Source: a virus
Length of the DNA stretch: 24,090 nt
Strand: one strand, 5' to 3'
IMG/VR virus record: IMGVR_UViG_3300037119_003173
Coordinates: 1-24,090 of that record
Positions 1 through 24,090 of the stretch are shown here, one piece after another (the first letter of the stretch is position 1; each line of letters opens with the position of its first letter). The notes under the pieces are model-generated. The model had not been told where the DNA came from, searched no databases, and saw only the letters and a list, made by a program, of their open reading frames with translations. The translations under genes and the position numbers were made by a program.

Positions 1-582
1 GAGGACGGCACGGGGAATCGTGCGTGATTCACTCAAGAAAAAATGCGCATAATTATTTTTCTCTGCATAATTTGCAGTGATTACATCATTACTTTCTTCC
101 TTCGACTGCATTTCTCTCGAACGATCATCAATCACTTTCGTTTCATCAACAACAATCAACGAACTTGAATCAGTTCGAGACGAACTCGAACTCGAACGAA
201 CTCTTGACCGAGACCTTGACTTCGAACTCTCCAACTGCGGCGAACCAACAACGAACGAACGCGAACTCGACTGCGAACTCGAACCCGAACTCAAACGCGA
301 TTCGTTCTCTTCGAACTTTCTTCCTTTCGCAATCAATTCTCTCTTTCGTTTGTTTCCCAACTGCGAACCATGAACGATGTTGCAGTGCGCATGGGCAGGG
401 CGGGCGTCCTGATCGAGCCCACCCTGGGAGCGTGGCTTCACATGGTCGAGGTGCCATGCCATGTCCGCGGTGACAAGGGCCCCGCACCTCGAGCAAGGGA
501 GCGGCAGGCGCCGTGCCCACATCGCGCGCCGCCTGGCCCACGCCCGAGATTCGTACGCCTCGCCACGGGGTGCCGTCTTCAC
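1..582 (-). CDS. HNH endonuclease with Ser-rich tail, 3' end cut by window edge
   Basis: The frame is open for 194 codons from a GTG at 582 to the window edge, so the C-terminus is missing. The GTG overlaps the stop of the preceding 29-residue gene as GTGA. The core reads as an HNH nuclease: CSRC (Cys30, Cys33), HLDHVKPRSQGG (residues 44-55) and PAHAHCN (62-68, closing Cys67 and Asn68), giving the Cys-pair/HxDH/HxxC layout of zinc-bound HNH enzymes. From residue about 95 the protein becomes low complexity, with runs of Ser and Ser-Arg to about 141, then an acidic/polar stretch. The DNA for this tail (1-370) is AT-rich with TCGAGT/GTTCG repeats, unlike the rest of the phage. In circular order this gene would lie just upstream of the terminase, a common place for phage HNH genes. 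HNH identity is seen in the motifs; a role in packaging or homing is inference. Confidence 0.72.
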   Translation of the reverse strand, partial: MKTAPRGEAYESRAWARRRAMWARRLPLPCSRCGALVTADMAWHLDHVKPRSQGGLDQDARPAHAHCNIVHGSQLGNKRKRELIAKGRKFEENESRLSSGSSSQSSSRSFVVGSPQLESSKSRSRSRVRSSSSSSRTDSSSLIVVDETKVIDDRSREMQSKEESNDVITANYAEKNNYAHFFLSESRTIPRAVL

Positions 583-668
583 AGCGACCGCCACAGTGCC
601 ACGAGAGCGACCACGTCCAGGACGAGCAGGGCGGCGAACATGAGGCGCGTCACCCGGGTGCCCCTCAC
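579..668 (-). CDS. 29-residue single-pass membrane peptide
   Basis: A very short gene fits exactly between its neighbours. Its GTG start (668) overlaps the stop of the beta-helix gene as GTGA, and its TGA overlaps the GTG of the HNH gene in the same way. After a basic N-terminus (RGTRVTR) residues 10-26 are a continuous hydrophobic stretch (MFAALLVLDVVALVALW), which predicts one transmembrane helix with the short basic end in the cytoplasm. The position, after a tailspike-like gene and near a candidate lysin, would fit a holin-like or spanin-like helper, but nothing in so short a sequence proves this. Support comes from the perfect double overlap and the strong hydrophobic segment. Confidence 0.5.
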   Translation of the reverse strand: MRGTRVTRLMFAALLVLDVVALVALWRSL

Positions 669-3916: not shown

Positions 3917-4225
3917 TCACTTCAGCAGCTCGACGATGCGCTCGAAGTCGCTCGGCCGCCACAGGTACGCCTCGACGCCCGGGCACCTGGCGAGGTCGGC
4001 GAGCCACTCGGCCTGCTGCGGGGTGACCTTGCCGTACTCGGACTTGAGTTCCGCGAGCACGAAGCGGGGCGGCCGCACGAGGGCCACGTCGGGCCAGCCG
4101 CGCTCGGACCACTTGGAGAGCTGGGGGTGGTAAAGGCGCCACCGAAAGAGGGTGCCGAGTTCCTTGACCTGGCGCAGGAACTGGGCCTCGGTGACGACGG
4201 GCGCGACGCGGACGGTCACGGTCAT
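3917..4225 (-). CDS. VRR-NUC domain nuclease
   Basis: A 102-residue protein starts at ATG 4225 in an ATGA overlap with the methyltransferase stop. It contains the PD-(D/E)XK-type pattern of VRR-NUC proteins: a helix with FLRQVKELGTLFRWRLYHP, then WPDVALVRPPRFVLAELKSEYGKVTPQQAEWL, in which the Pro-Asp of WPDVAL and the Glu-x-Lys of AELKS are the catalytic acidic/lysine pair, followed by a Gln helix, and a final YLWRPSDF segment. Size and domain order match stand-alone phage VRR-NUC proteins, which are thought to act as structure-specific or Holliday-junction nucleases. Its place at the end of the replication/recombination operon fits this. Translational coupling means the interrupted methylase upstream may affect its expression. 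Confidence 0.85.
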   Translation of the reverse strand: MTVTVRVAPVVTEAQFLRQVKELGTLFRWRLYHPQLSKWSERGWPDVALVRPPRFVLAELKSEYGKVTPQQAEWLADLARCPGVEAYLWRPSDFERIVELLK

Positions 4226-5763
4226 GTCGCGACTCCGAGGGGCATCTGGCGGTTGCGCCCGAGGCACTGCACGAGGTACTCGGGGTTGAGGTCGATGAGC
4301 AGCGCCCGCCGCGACAACGACTGCGCGACGAGGCCCACGGTGCCCGTGCCGGCGAACGGGTCGAGGACGACGCCGCCGACCGGGCTTCCGGCCTTGACGC
4401 AAGGCTCGACCAGCTTCGGCGGGAACGTGGCGAAGTGCGCGCCGGGGTAGGGCGCGGTCGCGATGGTCCAGACCGACCTCAGATTCCTTCCCGACGAAGT
4501 AGTGCGCTTCACGGTATCCTGCTCGTTATGACTGAACTGGAACTCGCCTACCTCGCCGGGATCGTTGACGCGGACGGCTCCATCACCATCGGCGTCGATA
4601 GGTGGCGCGGACCCGAACGAGCGGAGCACTCCGCGCCACGCTTCTTTGAGATCATCGCCGTCCGGCAATGCGACACAGAGGCGGTCCATCTCGCGCAGGA
4701 ACTCTTTGGCGGGAACATCACCATCGGCAAACCGGGCAGCCTCCGCGGTCGCCCGTCGCATGACTGGTACGCCTACAACCGCCGCGCCTGCGCTGCCATC
4801 ACGGCCCTGTTGCCGTACCTCCGCATCAAACGCAAACAGGCCGAGATCGTCCTCTCGCTCCGCGAGATCAAGGACCGCGGACGCGAGGCGAACACCAATC
4901 GCGGCGACGGTCGAACGCGAGTCCTGAAGCCCGAGACGCTGGCCGAGTACAAGCGGCTTACGGTGGCCGTTCGTGCCCTGAACGACTCGCGGCACCGTGA
5001 CCCCTTCGCGGACAGCATCGCTGTCGAAGAAGTAGCGGGCGCTCTTAGCCAGTAGGAAGATCATCTCGTGGGCCTTCGTCGGCCGGTCGGTGACGGACTC
5101 GGGCATGGGGTTGGGCTTCGACCAGATGATGTCGGAGCGCAGGTACCAGCCGTCCGCTTGGAGCGCGAACGCGACCCGCCACGGGATGCCGACGAGGTCT
5201 TTGTGTTTGATGCCGCCGAGTGAGTGCCGATTGTCCCGGCGCTTGTATCCGAGTGCGCCGTCCGCGCCCGTCGCGCCGCCGCGCCGCAATCCGTCCAGCC
5301 CTTCCCCGTTGCGAGACGATCCAGCGTTGTTGTACGAGTCCCCGAGGTTGAGCCAGACCGTGCCGTCGGCGCGCAGGACGCGGCGCACCTCGCGGAACAC
5401 CTCGACCATCGAGGAGACGTACGCCTCGGGCGTGTCCTCGAGGCCGAGCTGCGCGTCGATGCGCCGCGCGCCGCACTTGCCGCAGACCTTGTCGAAGTAG
5501 TAGCCCTCGGTCTTGGTCGCCTCCCGGCTCGGTCGGTTCTCGTTGAACGCCGGGTTGCCGAATGTTTTGGTCCGAGACGGGTCGGCAACGTGGTCGCACC
5601 CCGTATCGCCGCCGTCCCAGGATGCCGTGCCGTAATCGCGCAGGCCCCACTAATACGGCGGGCTGGTGACGACGCAGTGAACACTGTTCGCCTCCATGCC
5701 CGCCAGCACCTCTCTGCAATCGCCACCGTAGATGGTGAGCCAGGGGTCGGTGTGGTGGATCAC
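4222..5763 (-). CDS. Beta-class DNA methyltransferase, interrupted by TAG and by an antisense homing gene
   Basis: Reading from GTG 5763 (GTGA overlap with the 46-residue gene) gives 513 residues if one in-frame TAG (5650-5652) is read through. Motif order is catalytic TSPPY first (residues 33-37), then WGLRDYG, a Cys pair (VCGKCGARR), FREVRRVLRADGTVWLNLGDS, IIWSKPNPMPES, EMIFLLAKSARYFFD and finally the SAM-binding DPFAGTGTVG near the C-terminus. This is the permuted order of beta-class N4-cytosine/N6-adenine methylases (N6_N4_Mtase family). The TAG falls right after TSPPY. Between YFFDSDAVREG and SGRNLRSVWTIAT lies about 150 extra residues, which are the antisense of a LAGLIDADG gene yet stay in frame. 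Without that insert the length, about 360, is normal. The ORF from ATG 5409 alone would lack the catalytic motif. The gene is either decaying or needs readthrough. Confidence 0.78.
4528..5055 (+). CDS. LAGLIDADG homing endonuclease nested antisense in the methyltransferase
   Basis: A 175-residue protein starting at ATG 4528. It has one LAGLIDADG motif near the N-terminus (ELAYLAGIVDADGSITI), followed by FFEIIAVRQCD, the middle segment LAQELFGGNITIGK and ACAAITALLPYLRIKRKQAEIVLSL, the pattern of single-motif enzymes that act as homodimers. Its whole length lies opposite the methyltransferase gene. The last 20-25 codons are antisense to conserved methylase residues (FLLAKSARYFFDSDAVREG), so the homing gene has grown into, or used, host-gene sequence for its 3' end. 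There is no strong ribosome binding site; the bases before the ATG (TATCCTGCTCGTT) are weak. It is not an intein or an ordinary intron ORF, because it runs opposite to its host gene. Confidence 0.88.
   Translation: MTELELAYLAGIVDADGSITIGVDRWRGPERAEHSAPRFFEIIAVRQCDTEAVHLAQELFGGNITIGKPGSLRGRPSHDWYAYNRRACAAITALLPYLRIKRKQAEIVLSLREIKDRGREANTNRGDGRTRVLKPETLAEYKRLTVAVRALNDSRHRDPFADSIAVEEVAGALSQ
5650..5652 (-). other. In-frame amber codon after the catalytic TSPPY motif
   Basis: On the minus strand the codons are CCG TAT TAG TGG GGC CTG, that is PPY-stop-WGLRDYG. Family members normally run PPY-W-G-L-R-D-Y-G or a close variant, so both sides are native methylase and in the same frame. TAG is clearly used as a real stop elsewhere in the window (for example ends at 15455, 15887, 14918, 6363), so a reassigned code is unlikely. 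A point mutation, readthrough or sequence error remain possible. Confidence 0.8.
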
Positions 5764-5900: not shown

Positions 5901-6373
5901 TGCTCGCGCTCCGCGGGGCGCTTGCCCCCCGCCGCTGCGAGCAGTTCTGTAAAGGTCCGGTCTGACCCTAACGTTACGTTACCTAACGTTACGTTACTGC
6001 CAGTATTTTCTGGGACGGTCTGGACCGATCTGGACACGTGCTTGGAATAGTGCCGGTCGGCCTGGAGGAAGGTCTGCTTGCCGCCGACCCGCTGGTGCCG
6101 TGGCAGGGTCGGGATGTGCCCGCAGCCGCACTCGAGGAGGTGCAGGCGGCCGTTCTCCACGAGCTGGTGGGACCAGACGGTGATGTCAGCCTCGCGGCGG
6201 CGGGCCGTCCGGTAGGGGTAGAGCAGGGCGCCGATCCGCGACGGCCGCCACTCGATCCAGCCCGCATCGTCGGCGATGCACCAGAGGCCCACGTAGAACA
6301 GCCGGGTGGAGTCGGCCAGCGCCGCCAGCGTCTCGTCGGACCAGAACTCGGGGCGGACCTGCCTAATCCGCAT
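5897..6373 (-). CDS. Replication-initiation-like protein (replisome organiser type)
   Basis: A 158-residue protein starting at ATG 6373, overlapping the end of the HNH gene by 11 bases. The N-terminus, RIRQVRPEFWSDETLAALADSTRLFYVGLWCIADDAGWIEW, closely resembles the winged-helix start of phage replication organisers, which bind the origin and recruit the helicase. Then come a strand with Cys/His (LLECGCGHIPTLPRHQR) and a polar linker. Near the C-terminus the sequence repeats NVTLGNVTLG, encoded by a 15-bp DNA repeat. The protein is short compared with full DnaD-like organisers and may need a partner. Its location between recombination genes and a methylase fits a replication block. The family call rests on the N-terminal pattern only. 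Confidence 0.6.
   Translation of the reverse strand: MRIRQVRPEFWSDETLAALADSTRLFYVGLWCIADDAGWIEWRPSRIGALLYPYRTARRREADITVWSHQLVENGRLHLLECGCGHIPTLPRHQRVGGKQTFLQADRHYSKHVSRSVQTVPENTGSNVTLGNVTLGSDRTFTELLAAAGGKRPAEREH
5969..5997. repeat. 14-bp direct repeat, iteron-like
   Basis: The 14-mer TAACGTTACGTTAC occurs twice (5969-5982 and 5984-5997) with a period of 15 bases. Each copy contains the palindrome AACGTT and two GTTAC units. The patch is AT-richer than its surroundings and lies inside the 3' part of the replication-type gene, where it encodes NVTLGNVTLG. Iterons inside or beside an initiator gene are a common origin design, so this is a candidate origin binding site. Confidence 0.55.
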
Positions 6374-7761: not shown

Positions 7762-8261
7762 GACGCCTCCTCCTTGAGGCGCCGCAGTGGCGGATCGCCC
7801 AGATACGCGAGCGCCCGCAGCGCCCAGCTCCCGCCGAACTTCTCGAACGCCCAGAGCGCGCGGTTGCACGCGTTGCAGATCAGTCCACGCCGTTCGCCCG
7901 TGGCGTGGTCGTGGTCGATGTGAAGGCAACCCGGCCCACGCTTGGGCCCCGGCCGCTCGCAGATTGCACAGACCCCGCCCTGCGCCTCGTAGAGGGCGTC
8001 GAGGGTCGACGGCTCCATCCCGTGGTGATAGAGGACGTGACTGTGCGGCGACTTCGCGAACGCCCGGGCTTTGGCCTTGGCGTACAGCTCGGCCTTGTTC
8101 GCCCGGTAATAGGCGGCGTGGTATCTGGCGAAGTACTCGGGATTGGCCGCGTATCTCGCTCGCTGCTGGTCTCGAACCTTCTCGCGATTAGCGGCCCGCC
8201 ACTTACGGTTCCGCTCGACGTCCTTTGCCTTCGTGGCTGGTGAGTCGTCAGCCCTGGCCAT
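7758..8261 (-). CDS. Recombination endonuclease VII-like (HNH) protein
   Basis: The start is ATG 8261, five bases after AAGGAGG; an ATG 15 bases upstream lies before that site. The 167-residue product has a basic, Ala/Arg/Tyr-rich helical N-terminus (about 75 residues of RNRKWRAANREKVRDQQRARY type). The nuclease core follows: GGVCAICE, then LHIDHDHATGERRGLICNACNRALW. Two CxxC pairs form the zinc site and HIDHDHATG is the active-site signature of the T4 endonuclease VII family. That family cuts Holliday junctions and branched DNA before packaging. It lies between the RecT and exonuclease genes, consistent with a recombination role. A free-standing homing function is less likely but possible. 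Confidence 0.87.
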   Translation of the reverse strand: MARADDSPATKAKDVERNRKWRAANREKVRDQQRARYAANPEYFARYHAAYYRANKAELYAKAKARAFAKSPHSHVLYHHGMEPSTLDALYEAQGGVCAICERPGPKRGPGCLHIDHDHATGERRGLICNACNRALWAFEKFGGSWALRALAYLGDPPLRRLKEEAS

Positions 8262-9189
8262 CCATACCTCCTTCAACGACGCGGAACGGTCTAAAACCCG
8301 CCCTGACCATCGTGTGAATCCCGACGATCGCGTCGCGATCTGTCTCGGGTAGTTGCCGCAGTAGCCCGTCCGCCACGCTTTTCCAATCGGTGGTCGTGAC
8401 GTCTTTCGTTCTTCGCCAGGTCACTTTCCAGCCTTGGCCGACGAGCGTCGAGGCCGCCGCCATCGCGGCCTTGATGATGACTTCGAGGCGCTCCTCGTCG
8501 GCCTCGAGCGCCTTGCGCCTCCCGCGCACGTCGATGAGCGTGCGCACCGCGGCGTCGGTCTCTGGGGTGGCGTACAGCTCGCCGCCATCGTCGCCGGGGT
8601 ACCGCCGCTTGAGGGAGTCGAGGGTCTCCGCGAACGGTCCCCCGGCCGCCAGGCGCCCGCGGAAGTCGGCCGCGATGTCGAGCAGGCCCTCGAACAACGC
8701 GTCGTCGTAGCCGACCTCGAACACCTCGAGGCGAGACCCGCCCAGCAGCGCAGCCACGTCGGCCCGCCGTCGCCCGGTCACGCCCATCGCCCACTGCACC
8801 TGCGCCTCCACGTCCTGCGGCAGGCCGTCAGTCCAGCGCCGCGCCAGCGACCACTTGGCCTCGACGAGCCACGGCCGCCCAACGACGGTGTAGTCGGGGG
8901 ACGCGACCGCCCAGTCGATCGTGGGGTGGCGCGCGAGGGTGTGGACGCGCCGCAGCCGCTCGCCCGTCTGGTGCTCGTACTCGGCCCGGATGAGCGGCTC
9001 GAGGGCGAGCCCGATCTTCATCGGCAGGGTCTGCTCGACGGGCTCGATCCAGCCCAGTTTCTCGGCCGCCACGTCCCACTCGGACTTCCAGGGCGAGACG
9101 CCGAGCAGCGCCGGGAGGTCGGTCGAGGACACCGCGGCCTTGCGCGCGGCGTGCCATTCGGGCGAGCCCTGGCGAACGGCGGCGGTCAC
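8248..9189 (-). CDS. YqaJ-type / lambda-exonuclease-like recombinase
   Basis: A 313-residue protein starting at GTG 9189, in GTGA overlap with the gene before. The N-terminal 150 residues give the viral-recombinase nuclease signature: RQGSPEWHAARKAAVSSTDLPALLGVSPW, then GLALEPLIRAEYEHQTGE (conserved Glu), WAVASPDYTV (Asp), PWLVEAKWSLARRW (Glu-x-Lys) and VEAQVQWAMGVTG (Gln helix). These are the catalytic residues of the PD-(D/E)XK family that resects double-stranded ends 5' to 3'. The C-terminal 150 residues include a helical section with KRRKALEADEERL-like coiled coil and end in a WKVTWRRTKDVTTTDWKS strand pair. It works with the RecT protein in a two-component recombination system. RecE/YqaJ identity is well supported by motifs. 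Confidence 0.87.
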   Translation of the reverse strand: MTAAVRQGSPEWHAARKAAVSSTDLPALLGVSPWKSEWDVAAEKLGWIEPVEQTLPMKIGLALEPLIRAEYEHQTGERLRRVHTLARHPTIDWAVASPDYTVVGRPWLVEAKWSLARRWTDGLPQDVEAQVQWAMGVTGRRRADVAALLGGSRLEVFEVGYDDALFEGLLDIAADFRGRLAAGGPFAETLDSLKRRYPGDDGGELYATPETDAAVRTLIDVRGRRKALEADEERLEVIIKAAMAAASTLVGQGWKVTWRRTKDVTTTDWKSVADGLLRQLPETDRDAIVGIHTMVRAGFRPFRVVEGGMDGQG

Positions 9190-9497
9190 GACGCACGCCT
9201 TCGTTCGCGGGCCAGCTTGTCGGACGCTACTCGCCAGCCCTTCTTGACGGCCAGCGCGACATGCTCGGTGAGGTAGGCGCTCCCATTCAGCCGCCAGTGA
9301 GGCCGAAACTCCCCGATGTAGTTCTCGTTCTCGGCCAGGAAATCGGCCATCAAGAACAGCCAGTCCATCGACAGCGGGAGCCACCGTCCGTTGATGTAGG
9401 CCTTCAGCACGAGGTCGTCACCGGGCTTCTCCCCGCGGAACACCCGCAGATCAACCCCTTGGATCGTGAACCTCTCATCAGGCCGGAACCGCCGCAT
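9186..9497 (-). CDS. Conserved-looking protein of unknown function
   Basis: A 103-residue protein from ATG 9497, overlapping the end of the Dam-like gene by 20 bases and coupled to the exonuclease by GTGA. The sequence has FTIQGVDLRVFRGEKPGDDLVLKAYINGRWLPLSMDWLFLMADFLAENENYIG, alternating strands then an amphipathic helix, and ends in a strongly basic tail (RVASDKLARERRRAS). No Cys or His cluster and no membrane segment is present. Its location beside a nuclease-recombinase suggests an accessory factor of that system. I do not recognise a family. Confidence 0.65.
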   Translation of the reverse strand: MRRFRPDERFTIQGVDLRVFRGEKPGDDLVLKAYINGRWLPLSMDWLFLMADFLAENENYIGEFRPHWRLNGSAYLTEHVALAVKKGWRVASDKLARERRRAS

Positions 9498-12407: not shown

Positions 12408-14077
12408 GCCGTGCTCCGGTCGAGACCCCGCGTGAACGGACCGCTGCCGCCGTTGTTGCGCGACCAGCGCCGGATCGCGCGCATGACCTCCTGCGGGTCG
12501 GCGGACTGCACGTTGACGTTGACGGTCGTGCCGCTGCCCCCGTCGCCGGCAGCCCGGCCGCTGCGACGGCCGAGGCCCATGACCGCGACGCCGCGGGTGC
12601 CGCCGGTCGCGGGCGGCGCCACGCTCCAAGGGGTGATCTCGCTGGCCGTCTTCTCGAGGCCCGCGATCGTGTCGCCGATGCCCTTGAGGATGCCGTTGAT
12701 GAAGTCGACGGCGCCCTGGACGATGCCCTTGACCGTCTCCATGATCCGCCGGATCGTCTCCTCGAACGCCTTCCACGGCGCCTCGAGCATCGCCTGGACG
12801 GTCGAGAAGATGAGGGCGATCGCGTCGATGGCGGTCCCGACGGCCTTCGCGACCACGTCGAACACGGTCTCGGCGATCGTCTGGAACGTCTCGAACGGCG
12901 TCTTCAGGAATGCAAGGACGCCGTCGAAGATGATCTTGACCGCGTCGATGCACGTCTCGACGACCTCGAGCACCACGTCCCAGACCGTCTCGGCGATGGC
13001 CTGGAAGGACTCGAACGGCTTGCGGAGCCATTCGAGGATGCCCGCGAAGATGGCCTGCATCGCGTCGATGCTCGTCGTGACGACGAAGTCGATCGCGTCG
13101 AACACCGTCTGCGCGACGCCGCCGAGGATGACGATCGCGTCGCCCATCGTGCCGACGACCTTGGCGCCGATGTCGAAGACCGTCGAGATGATGTCGCGGA
13201 AGAGCTGCGACCGCTGGTACAGCATGATCAGCCCGGCGCCGATCGCGAGGATGGCGAGGATGAACAGCGACACCGGGCTCGTGAGCAGCGCGAGGATGCC
13301 CATCGCGACGTTCACCGCGAGGATCGCGCCGGCGAGGATGCCGAAGAACACCGCCAGCGGCTGGACGATGTCCATGTGCTCGCGCAGGAAGCCGGCAGAC
13401 GCCTGCGCCAGGTCGGTGAGGGTCTGCAAGACAGGGAGAAAGGTCGAGCCTATGGTCTCGCCGAGCTCGAGGTAGGCGTCGCTGACGGCGAGGAGCTGGC
13501 CCGGGGCAGATGCCGCGTAGGTCTCGGCAGCGCCCGCGGCGAGATCGGTCGCGATCGCGATCTGCTCGGTCGGGTCCTTGACCCGCTCCATGCCCGGGAT
13601 CAGCGCCTGGAGCTGGCGGTTCTGGCCCTCGTGCGCCTTCGCCAGTGCGTCGGCCGCGGTCTCGAGGTCGACTCCCGCCAGGCGCGCGATGTCCATCGCG
13701 GGGCCGAGCAGCTCGTTCGCCTTCGCGGCGTCGCCGGTCGCGGTGACCAGCGGCGCGAGGGCGTTGCGGACGGCGGTGTCGGTGAACGCCTTGGCGCGGC
13801 CTGCCTGGACCGCCTCGTTGATCGCGCCGCTGTAGTCCTCGGTGGAACCTGTGGCGTTCTCGTAGACCTTGGCGAGCTTGGCCTGCTCGCCCGCGTCCTT
13901 GGCGGCGGCCACGGTCATGGCGCCGAGGCCGGTGACCACCGTCGCGGCCGGGATGGCCGCCGCCCCGATGGCGGCCTCGAAGCCGCCGGTCTTCTTGCCG
14001 AGCTTGTCGAACTCCTTGATCGCGCCGTTCGCGTCCGCGATGATCTTGATCGCGAGGATCGCGGAGCCGCCGGCCAC
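12404..14077 (-). CDS. Tape measure protein
   Basis: A 557-residue protein from GTG 14077, with two bases between the chaperone stop and this start. Features of a tape measure: Ala/Gly-rich helical N-terminus (residues 30-65), long helical body, a hydrophobic block at 240-285 (LAVFFGILAGAILAV, ALLTSPVSLFILAILAIGAGLIML) that may enter the host membrane, and three 40-residue amphipathic repeats (344-463). The tail is Gly-rich and ends in a polar region (RRWSRNNGGSGPF). It is directly downstream of the chaperone pair, its usual place. At about 0.15 nm per residue, a known rule for such proteins, the tail would be about 80-85 nm: a short siphovirus tail. No peptidase or lysozyme motif was seen. 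Confidence 0.9.
   Translation of the reverse strand: MAGGSAILAIKIIADANGAIKEFDKLGKKTGGFEAAIGAAAIPAATVVTGLGAMTVAAAKDAGEQAKLAKVYENATGSTEDYSGAINEAVQAGRAKAFTDTAVRNALAPLVTATGDAAKANELLGPAMDIARLAGVDLETAADALAKAHEGQNRQLQALIPGMERVKDPTEQIAIATDLAAGAAETYAASAPGQLLAVSDAYLELGETIGSTFLPVLQTLTDLAQASAGFLREHMDIVQPLAVFFGILAGAILAVNVAMGILALLTSPVSLFILAILAIGAGLIMLYQRSQLFRDIISTVFDIGAKVVGTMGDAIVILGGVAQTVFDAIDFVVTTSIDAMQAIFAGILEWLRKPFESFQAIAETVWDVVLEVVETCIDAVKIIFDGVLAFLKTPFETFQTIAETVFDVVAKAVGTAIDAIALIFSTVQAMLEAPWKAFEETIRRIMETVKGIVQGAVDFINGILKGIGDTIAGLEKTASEITPWSVAPPATGGTRGVAVMGLGRRSGRAAGDGGSGTTVNVNVQSADPQEVMRAIRRWSRNNGGSGPFTRGLDRSTA
12689..13048 (-). repeat. Three 40-residue repeats in the tape measure
   Basis: Residues 344-383, 384-423 and 424-463 begin FAGILEWLRKPFESFQAIAE, FDGVLAFLKTPFETFQTIAE and FSTVQAMLEAPWKAFEETIR, and all end in a xxIDAxxxI-like helix end. 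The period is exactly 40 residues (120 bp). Exact periodicity is expected where repeat number sets tail length. Confidence 0.85.
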
Positions 14078-16216: not shown

Positions 16217-16593
16217 GGCGCCTCCTCGAGGACCGCGTCGGAGATGTCATCCCACTGCTGGAGCACCTGGCGGATGAGGCCGTTCATCTGCTTGGTGAGC
16301 GCCTCGATCTGCGCCCCGTTCTGCGCGTTGGTCGGCGGATCGAGCGCGAGGAATGCCTTGTTCTTGTCGAGCGCCTTCTGGCCCTGCGCGCGCAGCTCCG
16401 CGACGTTCTGGCTGTACTCCCAGTGCTCGTGCGCCGCCGTCTCCTCGGGCGTGGCGGAGCGCTGCTCGTCCATGACGAGGTCGGGCCCGTAGTGGCGGTA
16501 CTCCACCACGTCCGCGATGCGCTCCAGCTCCACCCGCGCGACGAGCGCATCGTCGATGCCGTAGGACTCGATGCGCTGGATCGTCTCGCTCAC
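16213..16593 (-). CDS. Unknown helical protein, fibre-accessory-like
   Basis: A 126-residue protein from GTG 16593 in GTGA overlap with the collagen-like gene. It has two regions: [51 protein letters not shown] (mixed, charged) and a helical C-terminus with [30 protein letters not shown]. The [16 protein letters not shown]...LIR stretch resembles the short accessory proteins that follow fibre genes in Bacillus and actinophages (XkdW type), possibly fibre chaperones. Coupling to the collagen-like gene supports this. Family call is tentative. Confidence 0.5.
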
Positions 16594-17627
16594 GTCGGTG
16601 CGACCTTGCGGCAGACGACGCCCGACATCATCGAGTTGGGCCCATACGCGATGCCCGACCAGGGCGAGGCGGTCGCGGGCAGCGTCCCCCACGCGAACGG
16701 GCGCCAGAACTCGACCGTGTACGGATTGGTCGCGATCGAGGGCCCGACCCCGACGCCGTTCATCGACGCGCCCGTCGTCGTCAGCATTCGGATGATCACG
16801 CTCGCGCTCGCGGTGGCGACCGCCATGAAGCGTCCGGGCGGGATCGTGAGCGAGACGGCCTTGGTCTTGAGGCCCGTGGTCGAGGCGTCGATGGTGCCCG
16901 CGTCGAGCAGCAGCGTGCTGGGCTGCCAGTTCGTATCCGCGTTGTAGATGCCGACCCGGATGAGCGCGCTCGCCAGCGCAGTCGTGACTTCGAGCCCGAG
17001 CTCGTCGATCGGGAACGGGTTGTCGAGGAACCACGGGAAGTGGAACAGGTAGCCCGCCGTCAACTCCCGGACCGTGGTGCCCGGCCAGACGATGTGGTTG
17101 CCGGGGATCGTCCACCACGCGCTGCCCATGCCGTGGATATGGCCTGGGTCGGGAGCGCCACCCGAGCCGGGGGCGCCCGTCGCGCCCGTGTCGCCCTTGG
17201 GGCCCTGCGGGCCCGGATCGCCCTGCGGTCCCGCCGGCCCCGTCGCGCCAGTCGTGCCGGTCGTGCCGGTCGCGCCCGGATCACCCTTGGGACCCTGCGG
17301 GCCCTGCGCCCCCGTCGAGCCAGTCGTGCCGGGCGGGCCCGCCGATCCGCTGTCGCCCTTGGGTCCGGGGTCACCCTGGATGCCCTGCGGCCCCTGCGGG
17401 CCGGTCGTGCCCGGCGGGCCAGGCACGGTCGACGCGGGACCCGTGGCGCCGGTCGGACCCTGCGGACCGGTTGTGCCGGGTGGGCCGGCTGGCCCCGGGA
17501 CGGTGGAGTCGGCGCCGGGCGGCCCCGCGGGTCCGGCTGGACCCTCGGGCCCGGGCAGGCCGCCGGCCGCCGAGATGTCGACGTAGATGGGCGGCGTCTC
17601 GATGACGACGTCGAGGTACGTGGTCAC
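16590..17627 (-). CDS. Collagen-like fibre protein
   Basis: A 345-residue protein from GTG 17627 (GTGA overlap). Residues 23-157 are a nearly pure Gly-X-Y tract ([19 protein letters not shown]... GAPGSGGA) that should fold as a collagen triple helix. It is followed by a 188-residue beta-rich C-terminus: [19 protein letters not shown]..., [41 protein letters not shown]..., [24 protein letters not shown]..., ending [21 protein letters not shown]. The tail is a trimerisation or receptor-binding head. Its place just after the capsid genes and a BppU-like gene, not in the tail-tip cluster, suggests a head fibre or decoration rather than a tail fibre. Function is inferred from fold and position. 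Confidence 0.78.
17157..17561 (-). repeat. Gly-X-Y collagen-like tract
   Basis: About 45 consecutive Gly-X-Y triplets, with frequent GPx and GPP, GTTG and GPKGD variations. Coding repeats are GGxCCxGCC-type 9- to 18-mers such as GGCCCGCAGGG. Such tracts vary in length between related phages by slippage or recombination. Confidence 0.9.
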
Positions 17628-20040: not shown

Positions 20041-20624
20041 GGCCGTCTCCACTGCCGAAGGTCGGGCAGCGGCGACCGATTGACCTCGGGCACGGGGTGC
20101 GCGTCGAGCCACGCCCGGAGGTCGGCGGCGCCGAACGTCGGGGCGCGGACCTCGAGGACCCGGGCCCCGTCGTAGGCCCCGGTCGGCAGCAGCGTCACCT
20201 CGCCCAGCTCGGCCTCGACGATCTCGCGGGCACCGTCGGCGCCGCGCTGGGCCCGGACGGTGCGGAACCCGACGCTGAACGAGTCCAGCAGGCCCTCGCG
20301 GACCTCCTCGAGGGTCTGGTCGCCGGTCGGGGTGTTGGCGATGCGCCAGGTGGTGTAGAGGCCGTCCGGGTGGCGGGCGTCGAGGCTGACCGCCCGCCCC
20401 ACCGGAACCATGTCATGGCCGTGGTTGCCCCTGAACAGCTTGAGCCGGTCGCCCCGGGCCTTCACGGATCGAGTGAGAGACCCGGCGAGGAACCTCTCGC
20501 CCGCGGGGTCCGGGGTCAACCGGCTCGTTTCGTTCCAGGGGACCGCGATGCCGCCGACGATGCGCTCGTCGGTCGAGACCGGCGCCCGCCAGTCGATCGT
20601 GAACGCGAGCGAGGTCGTTTCCAT
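20037..20624 (-). CDS. HK97-family prohead protease
   Basis: A 195-residue protein starting at ATG 20624 (TGATG overlap with the HNH stop; AGGAC-type site GGAGGACCG before it). It shows FTIDWRAPVSTDERIVGGIAVPWNETSRLTPD..., FLAGSLTRSVKARGDRLKLFRGNHGHDMVPVGRAVSLDARHPDGLYTTWRIANT, then EVREGLLDSFSVGFRTVRAQRG and GEVTLLPTGAYDGARVLEVR. His68/His70 and Ser115/Ser117 in SFSVGF are the catalytic type of the HK97 prohead protease (U35). It cleaves the capsid delta domain. The HNH gene lies between it and the portal. Confidence 0.9.
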   Translation of the reverse strand: METTSLAFTIDWRAPVSTDERIVGGIAVPWNETSRLTPDPAGERFLAGSLTRSVKARGDRLKLFRGNHGHDMVPVGRAVSLDARHPDGLYTTWRIANTPTGDQTLEEVREGLLDSFSVGFRTVRAQRGADGAREIVEAELGEVTLLPTGAYDGARVLEVRAPTFGAADLRAWLDAHPVPEVNRSPLPDLRQWRRP

Positions 20625-20992
20625 CACACGGTCCTCCGTTTGCGGTATTCGGCGGAGTACCGCGAGGCGCAGACCCGGCACCAACGCCCGCCATCGGGTC
20701 GGCGATGAGTATTCGCAGGCGTGAACTCGTGACCGTGGACACACGCCGTCCGTGACCTCCGCCATCCGGCGGCGCGTCGCGTGTTCTCGGCGCGCGTGAC
20801 GACCTCGAGATGGTCGGGGTTCACGCACGCACGGACGCGGCAGAGATGATCGATCTCCATGCCGTCCGGGATCGGTCCGCGGGCCGCTTCATACGCCACC
20901 CGATGCGCGAGGGCACTTGGCCGCCCCGGGATCGCCCGTCGCCCGTATCCATCCCGGTCGATGTAGCCCGTGGACAGGATGCAGTCGCTCAT
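20624..20992 (-). CDS. HNH endonuclease between portal and protease
   Basis: A 122-residue protein from ATG 20992 (ATGA overlap with the portal stop). It has GYGRRAIPGRPSALAHRVAYEAARGPIPDG, MEIDHLCRVRACVNPDHLEVVTRAEN, a family core close to the HNH at 3450 (DHLCxxxxCVNPxHLEVVTRxEN), and then a C-terminal CVHGHEFTPANT...RWCRVCASRYSAEYRKRR, a second Cys/His zinc segment. Likely a free-standing homing nuclease inserted in the head operon without breaking coupling. The neighbouring portal has an AT-rich patch about 250-350 bases away. Confidence 0.87.
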   Translation of the reverse strand: MSDCILSTGYIDRDGYGRRAIPGRPSALAHRVAYEAARGPIPDGMEIDHLCRVRACVNPDHLEVVTRAENTRRAAGWRRSRTACVHGHEFTPANTHRRPDGGRWCRVCASRYSAEYRKRRTV

Positions 20993-22230
20993 ACGGTTGC
21001 TTGCTGGGGGACGAGGTCCGCGGGTGGCAGGTCCTCGGTCTCGCGGACTTCCTCGGGCAGCTTCCAGCCGGCCGCGATGGCCGACGCGTGGGCCTCGTAC
21101 CGGTCCTTGGTCGTGCCCCGCAGCAGCGCGTCGAGGGTGACCTTGAGTTCGACGCCCCGGGGGAACTGGGCGTCGAGCACGGCCTCGATGCGGCTGGTCC
21201 AGGGGAGCAGCGTGAACATGACCAAATCTTGTCGCCGCGTCTCTAAATTCGCATAAGTGTTGGGATCAGTGCCCCCAGCCCCAATAAAATAACCGGGGAC
21301 ACCAAATGCATTTGCGATCTCATTTAATGAAGCCTGCATGACTTCTTTAAGGGCGGCGTCGACGGGGCTCCACGTCAACGCGGTGTACTCGGTCGTCGAG
21401 TTCAGGACCGCGGTGCGGCGGTTGCCGGTGCCGTGCTTGGCGTCCCAGCGCGCCGACAGCTCGTCGGCCTTGTCCTGTGTCAGCCCCTCCTTGGTCACGC
21501 GCAAATAACCACTTGGCACTCCGGACCTGAAGATCGAGTGGGCGTAATCCTTGATGGTCAGGGCGTAGCCGAGTTCCGCGCCGAACCGCTGGAACGCGCC
21601 CACGCCGCGGCGCCCGACGATGGGCCCGGGGCCGCGCAGGTGGATCAGCTCGGTCGCCGGGAGGTAGCGGTCGCCCGCGTAGTAGGCGCCCTCGCGGAAC
21701 TGCCAGTCGAAGGGGTGGATGAGGGCCATCGGCGGCCGCGGCGCGCCGTTGCTATCCCGGGAGGGGGCCCAGATCAGGCCGTCGCCCCACCACAGGGCGT
21801 CGGTCAGCCAGGACGACCAGAAGTCGACGTGGGACAGCGGCGCGAACGGCACCGAGGCGGGATCGACGACGCGGCCGTCGAGGCGGAGCGCCTGGGGGTC
21901 GGTGATCCAGTCCGGGGTCTCGAGCTGGTCCCGGCCGCGGTAGACCTTCCAGGGCGTCGCGCCCGAGAGGGAGTCCACGATGATCGAGGTGCAGCGCGCC
22001 ACGGACGGGATGCTGCCGAGCTGCGACCCCTCCATCGCGCCCGGGATCGGGTTGCCGATCGTGAACGGGCCGCCGATGGTCGGCATGCTCCACAGGTGCG
22101 GCTGCTCCACGGCCCAGCCGTCGGGCGGCCCGTTCCAGAGCACGTCTCGGACCGGCCCCGTCGCCGTCAGGATGTTGGAACTGATCCGGCGCTGCTCGAG
22201 TGCGGTGCGGACGCCGGTGAGGAACCCCAC
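20989..22230 (-). CDS. Portal protein, HK97 type
   Basis: A 413-residue protein from GTG 22230. Portal features: SVARCTSIIVDSLSGATPWKVYRG, LSHVDFWSSWLTDALWWGDGLIWAPSRD, MALIHPFDWQFREGAYYAG..., ELIHLRGPGPIVGRRGVGAFQRFGAELGYALTIKDYAHSIFRSGVPSGYLRV, LSARWDAKHGTGNRRTAVLNSTTEYTALTWSPVDAALKEVMQASLNEIANAFGVPGYFIGAGGTDPNTYANLETRRQDLVMFTLLPWTSRIEAVLDAQF. It forms the dodecameric entry ring for DNA. Residues encoded at 21236-21345 use AT-rich codons unlike the rest, although the amino acids are conserved family residues. Confidence 0.92.
   Translation of the reverse strand: MGFLTGVRTALEQRRISSNILTATGPVRDVLWNGPPDGWAVEQPHLWSMPTIGGPFTIGNPIPGAMEGSQLGSIPSVARCTSIIVDSLSGATPWKVYRGRDQLETPDWITDPQALRLDGRVVDPASVPFAPLSHVDFWSSWLTDALWWGDGLIWAPSRDSNGAPRPPMALIHPFDWQFREGAYYAGDRYLPATELIHLRGPGPIVGRRGVGAFQRFGAELGYALTIKDYAHSIFRSGVPSGYLRVTKEGLTQDKADELSARWDAKHGTGNRRTAVLNSTTEYTALTWSPVDAALKEVMQASLNEIANAFGVPGYFIGAGGTDPNTYANLETRRQDLVMFTLLPWTSRIEAVLDAQFPRGVELKVTLDALLRGTTKDRYEAHASAIAAGWKLPEEVRETEDLPPADLVPQQATV
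21236..21345 (-). other. Low-GC patch inside portal gene
   Basis: Here codons such as TTA, AAT, ATT, TTT and TAT replace the CTC/GAC/GTC types used elsewhere. A smaller similar spot is at 21495-21530. The encoded amino acids (SLNEIANAFGVPGYFIGAGGTDPNTYANLE) are ordinary portal. Foreign DNA by gene conversion, or a protected endonuclease site, could explain it. Confidence 0.7.
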
Positions 22231-22231
22231 G

Positions 22232-22429
22232 TCAGGCCTTGGCCTTGCCCTCGCGAGTCACGGGGCCGCCGCCCCCGGAGGTCTGCGCCTCGCCGAGGAC
22301 GACCGTCTCGCCCGACGTGACGCCGTTCTCCTCGATGCCCTCGATCTGCGGCTTGCCGAGGAACCGGTTCCGCTCGGCCTGCGTCGAGCGGCGTCGCCGC
22401 GTGTACTGCCCGAGTGAATTGCGCGCCAT
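22232..22429 (-). CDS. Small basic protein of unknown function
   Basis: A 65-residue protein from ATG 22429 (GAGGTG five to six bases upstream). It begins MARNSLGQYTRRRRSTQAERNRFLGKP (strongly basic) and continues IEGIEENGVTSGETVVLGEAQTSGGGGPVTREGKAKA, polar and probably disordered. It lies between terminase and portal with one base before the portal start. In some phages small proteins there modulate packaging or head assembly. I do not recognise a family. The 90 bases between it and the terminase stop hold only a possible leader. Confidence 0.6.
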   Translation of the reverse strand: MARNSLGQYTRRRRSTQAERNRFLGKPQIEGIEENGVTSGETVVLGEAQTSGGGGPVTREGKAKA

Positions 22430-22519
22430 CGCCCCACCTCGTGTCACAACGCTGTCACGCGCACTATGCGCCACTCGCCATCAGATGACTAGACCGAGGA
22501 CCTCCTGTAGGGCGTCACG

Positions 22520-24090
22520 TCAGAAGATCGCCGGCTCTTCCTCGGGCACGGGCAGCCGCACGGCGACGGCGAGCGCCCATGCCGCGGCGCGCAGGAGGTC
22601 GGTCCTCGCGGGCCCGGGGGCGACCTGGAGGCCGCCGGTGCGCGACTCGACGACCCGCGCCTGCTCGACCTGCTGGGCGAGTTCCTGCCCGCCGTCGTGG
22701 GCCAGGCGGCCCGCGGCCACCAGCTCGCGCAGCATCGGCAGCGCGCTCCGGGTCTCGGCCTGGCCCGCCAGTTCGCGGACCTCGGCCTCGATGGCCGCGG
22801 CGTCGGGGTCGTGCTCGAGGCTCGCGCCCAGGACGAGGGTGGAGCCGGGATGGGCCGCCACGATGCCCTGGAGCCACCCACAAGCCACGCTGCGCCGCGG
22901 ATGGAGCATTCCCCACACGAAGAGGCGCCCGTCGGGCAATCGCCCCGCCACGGCCGTCGCAGCGCCCTGTCCGAACCAGTCCTCGAGGCCGAGCACGAGA
23001 GCGCCCGACGGAACGCTCCCGAACTCGACGAGGGCGGCCCATTGACCCTCGTTCAATAGCGGCTGGTCGCGGTCGTTCGAGGCCACGACCCGGGCCGGCC
23101 AGATGTTCAGCCACTGGCTGCGGAACGACGCCAGCGGGTCGGGCTCGTCGGGGTCCTGCGGCGCCACGCCGTCGACCGCGCGCCGGTGCTGCGCCTCGAC
23201 CAGCCGCTCGCGCCGGTCGGACCAGTGCGGGCTCGCCCTGCGCCAGGCGTCGCGGTCACCGATGTCGGCGTGCGCCGGCGCCGACCACTCGAGGAGCAGC
23301 GTGTCGCGCGGGTCGTCGAGCTGCTCGATCGCCGTCTGGCGCCTTGACTGCATCAGCCCGGTCGCGAACCGGTGCGCGGTGGAGATGAGGGCGATCTGGC
23401 TGCTGACGCGCTCGGCCATCGTGGGCTCGAGGCCGTCCTCGACCACCTCGGGCAGGACTCCCCACGCCTCGTCCACGACGGCCATTGACGCGGAGTAGCC
23501 GTAGATGGAGCCCCGGCCGCGGATCATCCAGCGCCCGCCGTCGGGCGTCTGAATCTCCTCCTGACCGTTCTGCTCGCGGACCACGTAGCCGTCGTCCTTG
23601 AGCCGGTGCGCCCACGCCCGGGCGCTGCGCTGGACCTCCTTGGCGACGGGCAGGTCCTTGGCGGTGTGCAACACGAGCTGCGGCTCGCCGAACCGCTCGG
23701 ACTGGTGGATGCGCCAGAGCATCAGCTCGCGCAGCGCCCACGACTTGCCGAGCTGGCGGCTGAGGGTCCAGAGCGCGAACGGGAACACGAGGCCGAGGTC
23801 GCCGTACTCGAGGGTCCGCTGGAACGCGAGCCGCTGCCACCAGCGCAGGGGCTTGCCGAGCCGCTGCTCGGACCACGCGATGGCCTCGGCGCCCCAGGAG
23901 CCGGTTGCGGACGGGTGCGGGCGCGTCATCAGCCGCGGCCAGGTCGCGTTCTCGGGCACGGCGCGCAGATCGTCGAGCCACGGCGCGGAGTCCCAGCAGG
24001 AGTCGCCGGGACCCGGGGTGAATGCCTCGGAATCCGCCGGGATCGGGGTAGTCGGGCGGGTATCGGGTAATGCGGCACGGGTTCTTCCTC
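22520..24090 (-). CDS. Terminase large subunit, 5' end cut by window edge
   Basis: The frame is open to the right edge; the first in-frame GTG is at 23959, but the preceding codons encode SCWDSAPWLDDLRAVPENATWPRLMTRPHP, which is typical terminase sequence, so the true start lies upstream of 23959 and probably outside. From 23959: SRQLGKSW (residues 67-74) is a Walker A with Arg-Gln, MAVVDEAW (159-166) Walker B with DE, then ALISTAHRFATG (coupling motif). The C-terminal nuclease starts LVLGLEDWFGQGAAT and contains later acidic residues. The usual first Asp of the RNase H-like site reads Glu-Asp. This protein cuts and pumps genome DNA into the portal two genes downstream. Confidence 0.92.
   Translation of the reverse strand, partial: GRTRAALPDTRPTTPIPADSEAFTPGPGDSCWDSAPWLDDLRAVPENATWPRLMTRPHPSATGSWGAEAIAWSEQRLGKPLRWWQRLAFQRTLEYGDLGLVFPFALWTLSRQLGKSWALRELMLWRIHQSERFGEPQLVLHTAKDLPVAKEVQRSARAWAHRLKDDGYVVREQNGQEEIQTPDGGRWMIRGRGSIYGYSASMAVVDEAWGVLPEVVEDGLEPTMAERVSSQIALISTAHRFATGLMQSRRQTAIEQLDDPRDTLLLEWSAPAHADIGDRDAWRRASPHWSDRRERLVEAQHRRAVDGVAPQDPDEPDPLASFRSQWLNIWPARVVASNDRDQPLLNEGQWAALVEFGSVPSGALVLGLEDWFGQGAATAVAGRLPDGRLFVWGMLHPRRSVACGWLQGIVAAHPGSTLVLGASLEHDPDAAAIEAEVRELAGQAETRSALPMLRELVAAGRLAHDGGQELAQQVEQARVVESRTGGLQVAPGPARTDLLRAAAWALAVAVRLPVPEEEPAIF

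Follow-up and report, generated by a model that had tools for sequence, protein, structure and literature searches.

A predicted HNH-TerL fusion gene with a proposed cos site in its linker in a small tailed phage

Introduction

The HNH protein gp74 promotes cos cleavage in HK97, a phage with 3′ overhangs, and the interplay of HNH and TerL at cos in HK97-type packaging was left unresolved (PMC9410871). HNH homing genes also cluster near phage terminases (PMC10448857). No report of an HNH-TerL fusion, or of a cos within a terminase gene, was found in the literature (Kala et al., 2014 was outside the scope), and this absence is not proof of novelty.

The window analyzed here is an entire linear IMG/VR record, IMGVR_UViG_3300037119_003173 (24,090 nt). 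The best joint explanation, held at a probability of roughly 0.8, is that the window holds essentially the whole linear genome (about 24.07 kb) of a small tailed phage with cos-type ends, that it carries an HNH-TerL fusion with cos in the linker, and that virion DNA carries this gene split. The host is probably a member of the Actinobacteria. Related loci or contigs are given L-numbers and related genomes G-numbers; L005 and L012 are one contig, 3300037119_003408.

Results

Ends of the virion DNA

Six contigs (the window, L002, L003, L004, L005, and L007) shared a single start base, each behind a different purine-only tag, in keeping with the fixed physical ends of cos-type packaging. The window and L002 were identical over 8590 nt save the tag, with no other mismatch. 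All end tags were composed of purines only or pyrimidines only. A low-complexity Adaptase tail is present in those JGI viromes that were made with Accel-NGS 1S (Plus) (PMC6612421, PMC6511391), and on this basis the tags are most likely markers of genuine 3′ ends of the DNA. The two window edges resemble genuine ends of virion DNA.

Inside the short low-complexity tags, the 9-base sequence CCCGTGCCG occurred as a direct repeat at both window ends, and the relative L005/L012 carried CCCGTGTCT at both of its ends. A short sequence that is common to both ends and changes together between phages has the appearance of a cos overhang. Its presence at both ends would make the overhang 3′, provided that the tags were added at 3′ ends. 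A terminal 9-mer repeat was seen in these two phages only; most other contigs gave no terminal repeat when their far ends were checked, apparently owing to incompleteness. A junction pattern scan recovered 0 window-clade contigs spanning a joined cos. Separately, the ends of L047 (G010) overlapped by 153 nt at 99% identity, and this contig is probably a closed circle of ~20.4 kb that was not flagged as circular.

The HNH frame and the low-GC left end

A minus-strand frame (594..1) was open to the window edge and continuous with an HNH domain. The PF01844 match covered residues 34-72 and scored 22.6 bits against a cutoff of 21.4, and the CSRC, HLDH, and HCN residues were present, making this a predicted nuclease. 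The GTG at 582 is the likely start codon, overlapping the stop of the upstream ORF as GTGA; a GTGA also stood at the equivalent place in L012.

GC content was 0.432 within 15-366 and 0.700 in the remaining record, where the lowest value among 5833 other 352-nt windows was 0.577. The pentamer CGAAC was observed 15 times vs. 2.5 expected, with no more than 10 in any of 3000 dinucleotide resamplings, and CGAACT nine times vs. 0.8 expected. Of 21 TCG triplets, 15 were in codon phase. No Rfam match was obtained within 1-2400, and no tRNA was found. Coordinates of these and other features are collected in Table 1.

Table 1. Features of the window, with the predicted junction formed by its ends.
Feature	Position	Strand	Remarks
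Pyrimidine tag TCCTC (minus strand) at DNA 3′ end	1..5	-	Probably derives from the library (Adaptase tail) and not from the phage
Proposed cos cohesive-end sequence 5′-CCCGTGCCG-3′, HNH-end copy	6..14	-	9-nt direct repeat at both ends
5′ part of fused HNH-TerL ORF, open to cos end	6..582	-	GTG start at 582
Low-GC (43%) region, mostly Ser-rich linker	15..366	-	AGTTCG/TTCGAG hexamers (about 117-317)
T6 run, left part of proposed bipartite cos motif	38..43	-	T-runs in relatives
HNH endonuclease domain (PF01844)	379..495	-	Pfam profile match
DNA methyltransferase (N6_N4_Mtase)	4222-5409	-	In a 24-kb phage
15-bp tandem repeat CCTAACGTTACGTTA	5967-5997		
RecE-like exonuclease	8248-9384	-	phrog_434
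120-bp repeats	12821-13110		Inside tape-measure-like ORF region
Collagen-like repeat region	16590-17627	-	9-nt period at 17173-17378; possibly virion fibre
Free-standing HNH homing-type endonuclease	20624-20992	-	phrog_826, E 8e-45; between portal and protease
80-aa ORF between TerL and portal	22232-22474	-	No PHROG match
3′ part of fused ORF: linker end, then TerL	22520..24081	-	TerL conserved from about 24001
GATACCC, right part of proposed cos motif	24058..24064	-	GATCTCTCC-like in relatives
Proposed cos cohesive-end sequence 5′-CCCGTGCCG-3′, TerL-end copy	24073..24081	-	Same repeat; five other contigs begin here
Purine tag GAGGAAGAA (minus strand)	24082..24090	-	Probably library artefact; L002 has GAGAAAGGAA here
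Predicted junction after end joining: ...ATTCCCCGTGCCG/CATTACCC			

The joined HNH-TerL reading frame

At the right edge, no start codon lay between cos and the conserved core of TerL; the first possible start was the GTG at 23959, and the TerL residues upstream of it were conserved in five phages. Joining the window ends on the 9-mer put the HNH frame in phase with TerL, giving one ORF of ~709 aa (713 codons from the first GTG and 709 from the GTG at 582). L012/L005 joined on its own 9-mer likewise yielded one ORF, of 661 codons. The joined window linker (408 nt) contained no stops in the HNH frame and six and nine stops in the other two sense frames, and the probability that the HNH frame would be open was 0.008 under a dinucleotide model. 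After in silico joining, HNH and TerL thus lie in the same ORF, and the HNH is not a separate gene of the HK97 gp74 type.

The window TerL was 59% identical to that of L018 and matched phrog_9 at 3e-26. It encoded Walker A (SRQLGKSW) and Walker B (MAVVDEAW) motifs in which GKS and DE were invariant. In an AlphaFold model of the L018 fusion the HNH domain was confident at about residues 20-80, the linker (81-136) was disordered with pLDDT <50, and TerL was mostly >90. Foldseek with this model gave HK97 TerL (6z6d) as the best match (E 5.9e-22), followed by Sf6 gp2 and T4 gp17. Together, the L018 model and the alignment gave an HK97-like TerL fold with an ATPase and an RNase H-like nuclease. Sequence profile matches were 5h0m and 4h9d for the HNH domain and 6z6d for TerL. 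No small terminase was identified in the window; the 80-aa ORF at 22232-22474, which lacks a PHROG match, is a candidate TerS.

These results bear on the original prediction, which described an AT-rich, repetitive left end with a minus-strand frame open to the edge and joined to an HNH domain; the GC content, the CGAAC excess, and the PF01844 match bear this out. The repeat that it extended over 1-370 is present, yet is confined to about 117-317, and bases 1-5 are probably a library tag. Its Ser-rich tail is real as an in-frame, low-GC, terminase-adjacent continuation of the HNH protein. As the C-terminal end of a stand-alone enzyme it did not hold up: the tail is better read as a linker that connects HNH to TerL within a single ORF crossing the genome ends.

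Occurrence of the fusion in related loci

A TerL-alignment scan returned 80 viral loci and one prophage-like locus in Kribbella jiaozuonensis. Of 41 related loci with upstream DNA, 39, including the Kribbella prophage, encoded TerL and an HNH-like zinc motif in a single ORF; the 41 include several near-duplicates, and the independent number is lower. In the 240 nt preceding TerL no stop interrupted the fusion frame in any of the 23 loci checked, nearly all of which had stops in another sense frame. Relatives with as little as about 37% identity in TerL still carried the fusion, its domain order unchanged.

Among the uninterrupted fusions, L119, found by HNH scan, encoded a continuous 679-aa fusion with a cos-like motif in the linker, and K. 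jiaozuonensis (L093/L094) encoded one of 614 aa, the same 17-kb prophage-like stretch occurring on two scaffolds. In four further genomes, G012 (L059) and three added by the HNH scan (G422, G424, and G426), HNH and TerL lay at opposite ends and each frame was open to the edge; two of the four had a low-GC tail with a T6-7 run. In-frame joining is a candidate reading for these four, whose exact ends are imprecise. In L124 (G423) the HNH stopped after 117 aa and TerL was a separate 606-aa ORF; the fusion, as judged from these loci, is therefore common and not universal.

Among 394 genomes of the Kribbella class, only the Kribbella genome contained the fusion, and among 50,697 phage records no single match covered 80% of any of three fusion queries. 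A first HNH scan of viral contigs with exact peptide patterns from a single protein returned nothing because the patterns were too exact, and later alignments did find matches.

A recurrent DNA motif at the proposed cos

A DNA motif recurred among the loci: a T-run, then 33-45 nt, then GATCTCTCC or a GATACCC-like variant. It fell in the linker of seven loci (the window, L005/L012, L018, L024, L029, L093, and L119) and upstream of HNH in six (L025, L033, L037, L039, L048, and L055). T-runs upstream of cos were present in L012, L018, L024, L029, L119, L121, and L125. As the codon phase of the T-run varied between loci, the motif is conserved as DNA and not as protein. Other contig starts fell at the motif when compared with joined relatives (L042/L039, L034/L037, and L028/L029). 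A strict bipartite regular expression matched 9 of 35 vs. 0.065 expected, a descriptive statistic, the expression having been written after examples were seen; it missed the window and L005, which have GATACCC/AATACCC in place of CTCTCC. The motif is proposed to mark cos inside or just upstream of the fused gene.

Base composition and hexamers of the linker

The AT shift began inside the peptide QLGNxRKRELIAKG, which is shared with L012. Since the same peptide uses GC-rich codons in the relative and AT-rich synonymous codons in the window, the composition appears to have shifted over an old protein, and the low-GC stretch reads as native DNA and not as foreign DNA. This runs counter to the recent acquisition put forward in the original prediction. 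Its concern over assembly chimerism was likewise not borne out, as the independent contig 3300037119_003408 ended with the same HNH and low-GC, Ser-rich open tail.

GC was low just before cos in four genomes (the window, L012, L121, and L125), and the linkers of L018, L024, and L029 were not low in GC. The low-GC repeats would be cos-flanking linker DNA. The stretch may be a binding array, DNA that is bent or melts readily, or a linker expanded by slippage. That the hexamers are neutral products of slippage with no role at the DNA level is a considerable possibility, somewhat under even odds, and one compatible with the fusion: the units differ (AGTTCG in the window vs. CAATCG/CATTCG in L012), three relatives have linkers of ordinary composition, and a disordered tether tolerates expansion. 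The shared drop in GC before cos in four genomes and the reach of AT-shifted synonymous codons into conserved protein argue against neutrality.

Discussion

Alternative explanations

TerL could cross cos and still be translated alone from a start inside the low-GC tail, leaving HNH as a separate product. Within the window linker there are in-frame ATG (at EMQSKEES) and TTG (next to cos) codons, low GC could favor initiation, and L124 offers a precedent for separate ORFs. This reading is nevertheless unlikely, given that the frame ran without a stop from HNH into TerL in 39 relatives as well as in the window and L012/L005, that the ATG was not conserved in L012 and lacked a spaced Shine-Dalgarno sequence, and that no sigma-70-like promoter was found within 1-700. 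Less probable still is a homing origin, in which an HNH homing endonuclease would have invaded the terminase gene beside cos, leaving the fusion as a by-product without a packaging role. The clustering of homing genes near terminases and a second HNH gene in the window, apparently inserted between portal and protease, speak for such an invasion; recurrence of the fusion with one domain order across distant relatives and a cos-proximal position paralleling that of HK97 gp74 speak against it. No close relative lacking the HNH and having an intact end was found as an empty-site counterpart to the fusion.

An assembly chimera or a foreign low-GC insert at the contig edge, suggested by the sharp composition step near 366 and the nearby record edge, was rejected as very improbable. 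Both versions are largely refuted by L012/L118, L121, and L125, which are independent cases of an HNH leading, at the contig's own end, into an open low-GC tail that contains a T6-7 run, and by a composition shift that starts within protein conserved with L012.

As to the free-standing HNH gene itself, close relatives had nothing that aligned with about 20,633-21,023, a gap that suggests it was inserted recently, and an 88-nt piece of this locus matched a different HNH gene in L012 near 11,833.

Proposed mechanism and significance

Under the preferred reading of an HNH-TerL fusion with cos in the linker, the ORF in circular or concatemeric cell DNA would consist of the HNH domain, a flexible Ser-rich low-GC linker containing cos, and the TerL ATPase and nuclease. 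Translated as one protein, the fusion would bring the HNH nicking domain and TerL to cos together, in the way that gp74 and TerL, as separate proteins, do in HK97. Cleavage would then create 9-nt 3′ overhangs and cut the terminase gene itself, and packaged DNA would have the gene in two pieces. Annealing and ligation of the ends after injection would restore the full gene. Because the gene would be whole only after end ligation, new terminase could be made only from circularized or concatemeric DNA. The linker DNA would serve two purposes: it would encode a disordered tether, in which nearly any sequence is tolerated, and it would hold cos with its flanking recognition sequence. The hexamer array could be a binding array.

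The full form of this proposal is tentative and falls just short of an even chance: that the HNH-TerL gene of this lineage contains its own cleavage site, that packaged terminase genes are broken, that production needs end joining while each cut removes a template, and that the Ser-linker DNA is a recognition array. If cos does lie inside the terminase gene, the arrangement would be an unusual self-limiting circuit. A natural covalent fusion would fix a 1:1 stoichiometry and provide a single polypeptide for structural and in vitro cleavage work. On linear virion contigs, gene prediction would yield a truncated HNH ORF together with a TerL that lacks its N-terminus, and fusions of this kind may therefore be widely overlooked.

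Comparison with known systems

Homing HNH endonucleases near phage terminases (PMC10448857) share the HNH fold and the terminase-adjacent location. In the diverse group to which the window belongs, by contrast, the HNH forms part of the TerL ORF, and the proposed cos lies within or next to that ORF.

The Arthrobacter phages BlueFeather, Whytu, and Yavru (15-16 kb) also have an HNH near the right end and a terminase first at the left end, and their HNH proteins were about 49-51% identical to that of the window over 51-53 residues. In these phages, however, a separate 342-nt gene encodes the HNH, two or three small ORFs lie between it and the end, and in BlueFeather and Whytu the terminase has its own start at 75-77.

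The packaging module of HK97, like that of the window, places an HNH beside cos and combines an HK97-like TerL fold (6z6d) with cos ends bearing a short overhang, 3′ in HK97 and presumably 3′ in the window. The window HNH may work like gp74. Unlike gp74, which in HK97 is a protein distinct from TerL, it is joined to TerL in silico, in one ORF that contains the proposed cos.
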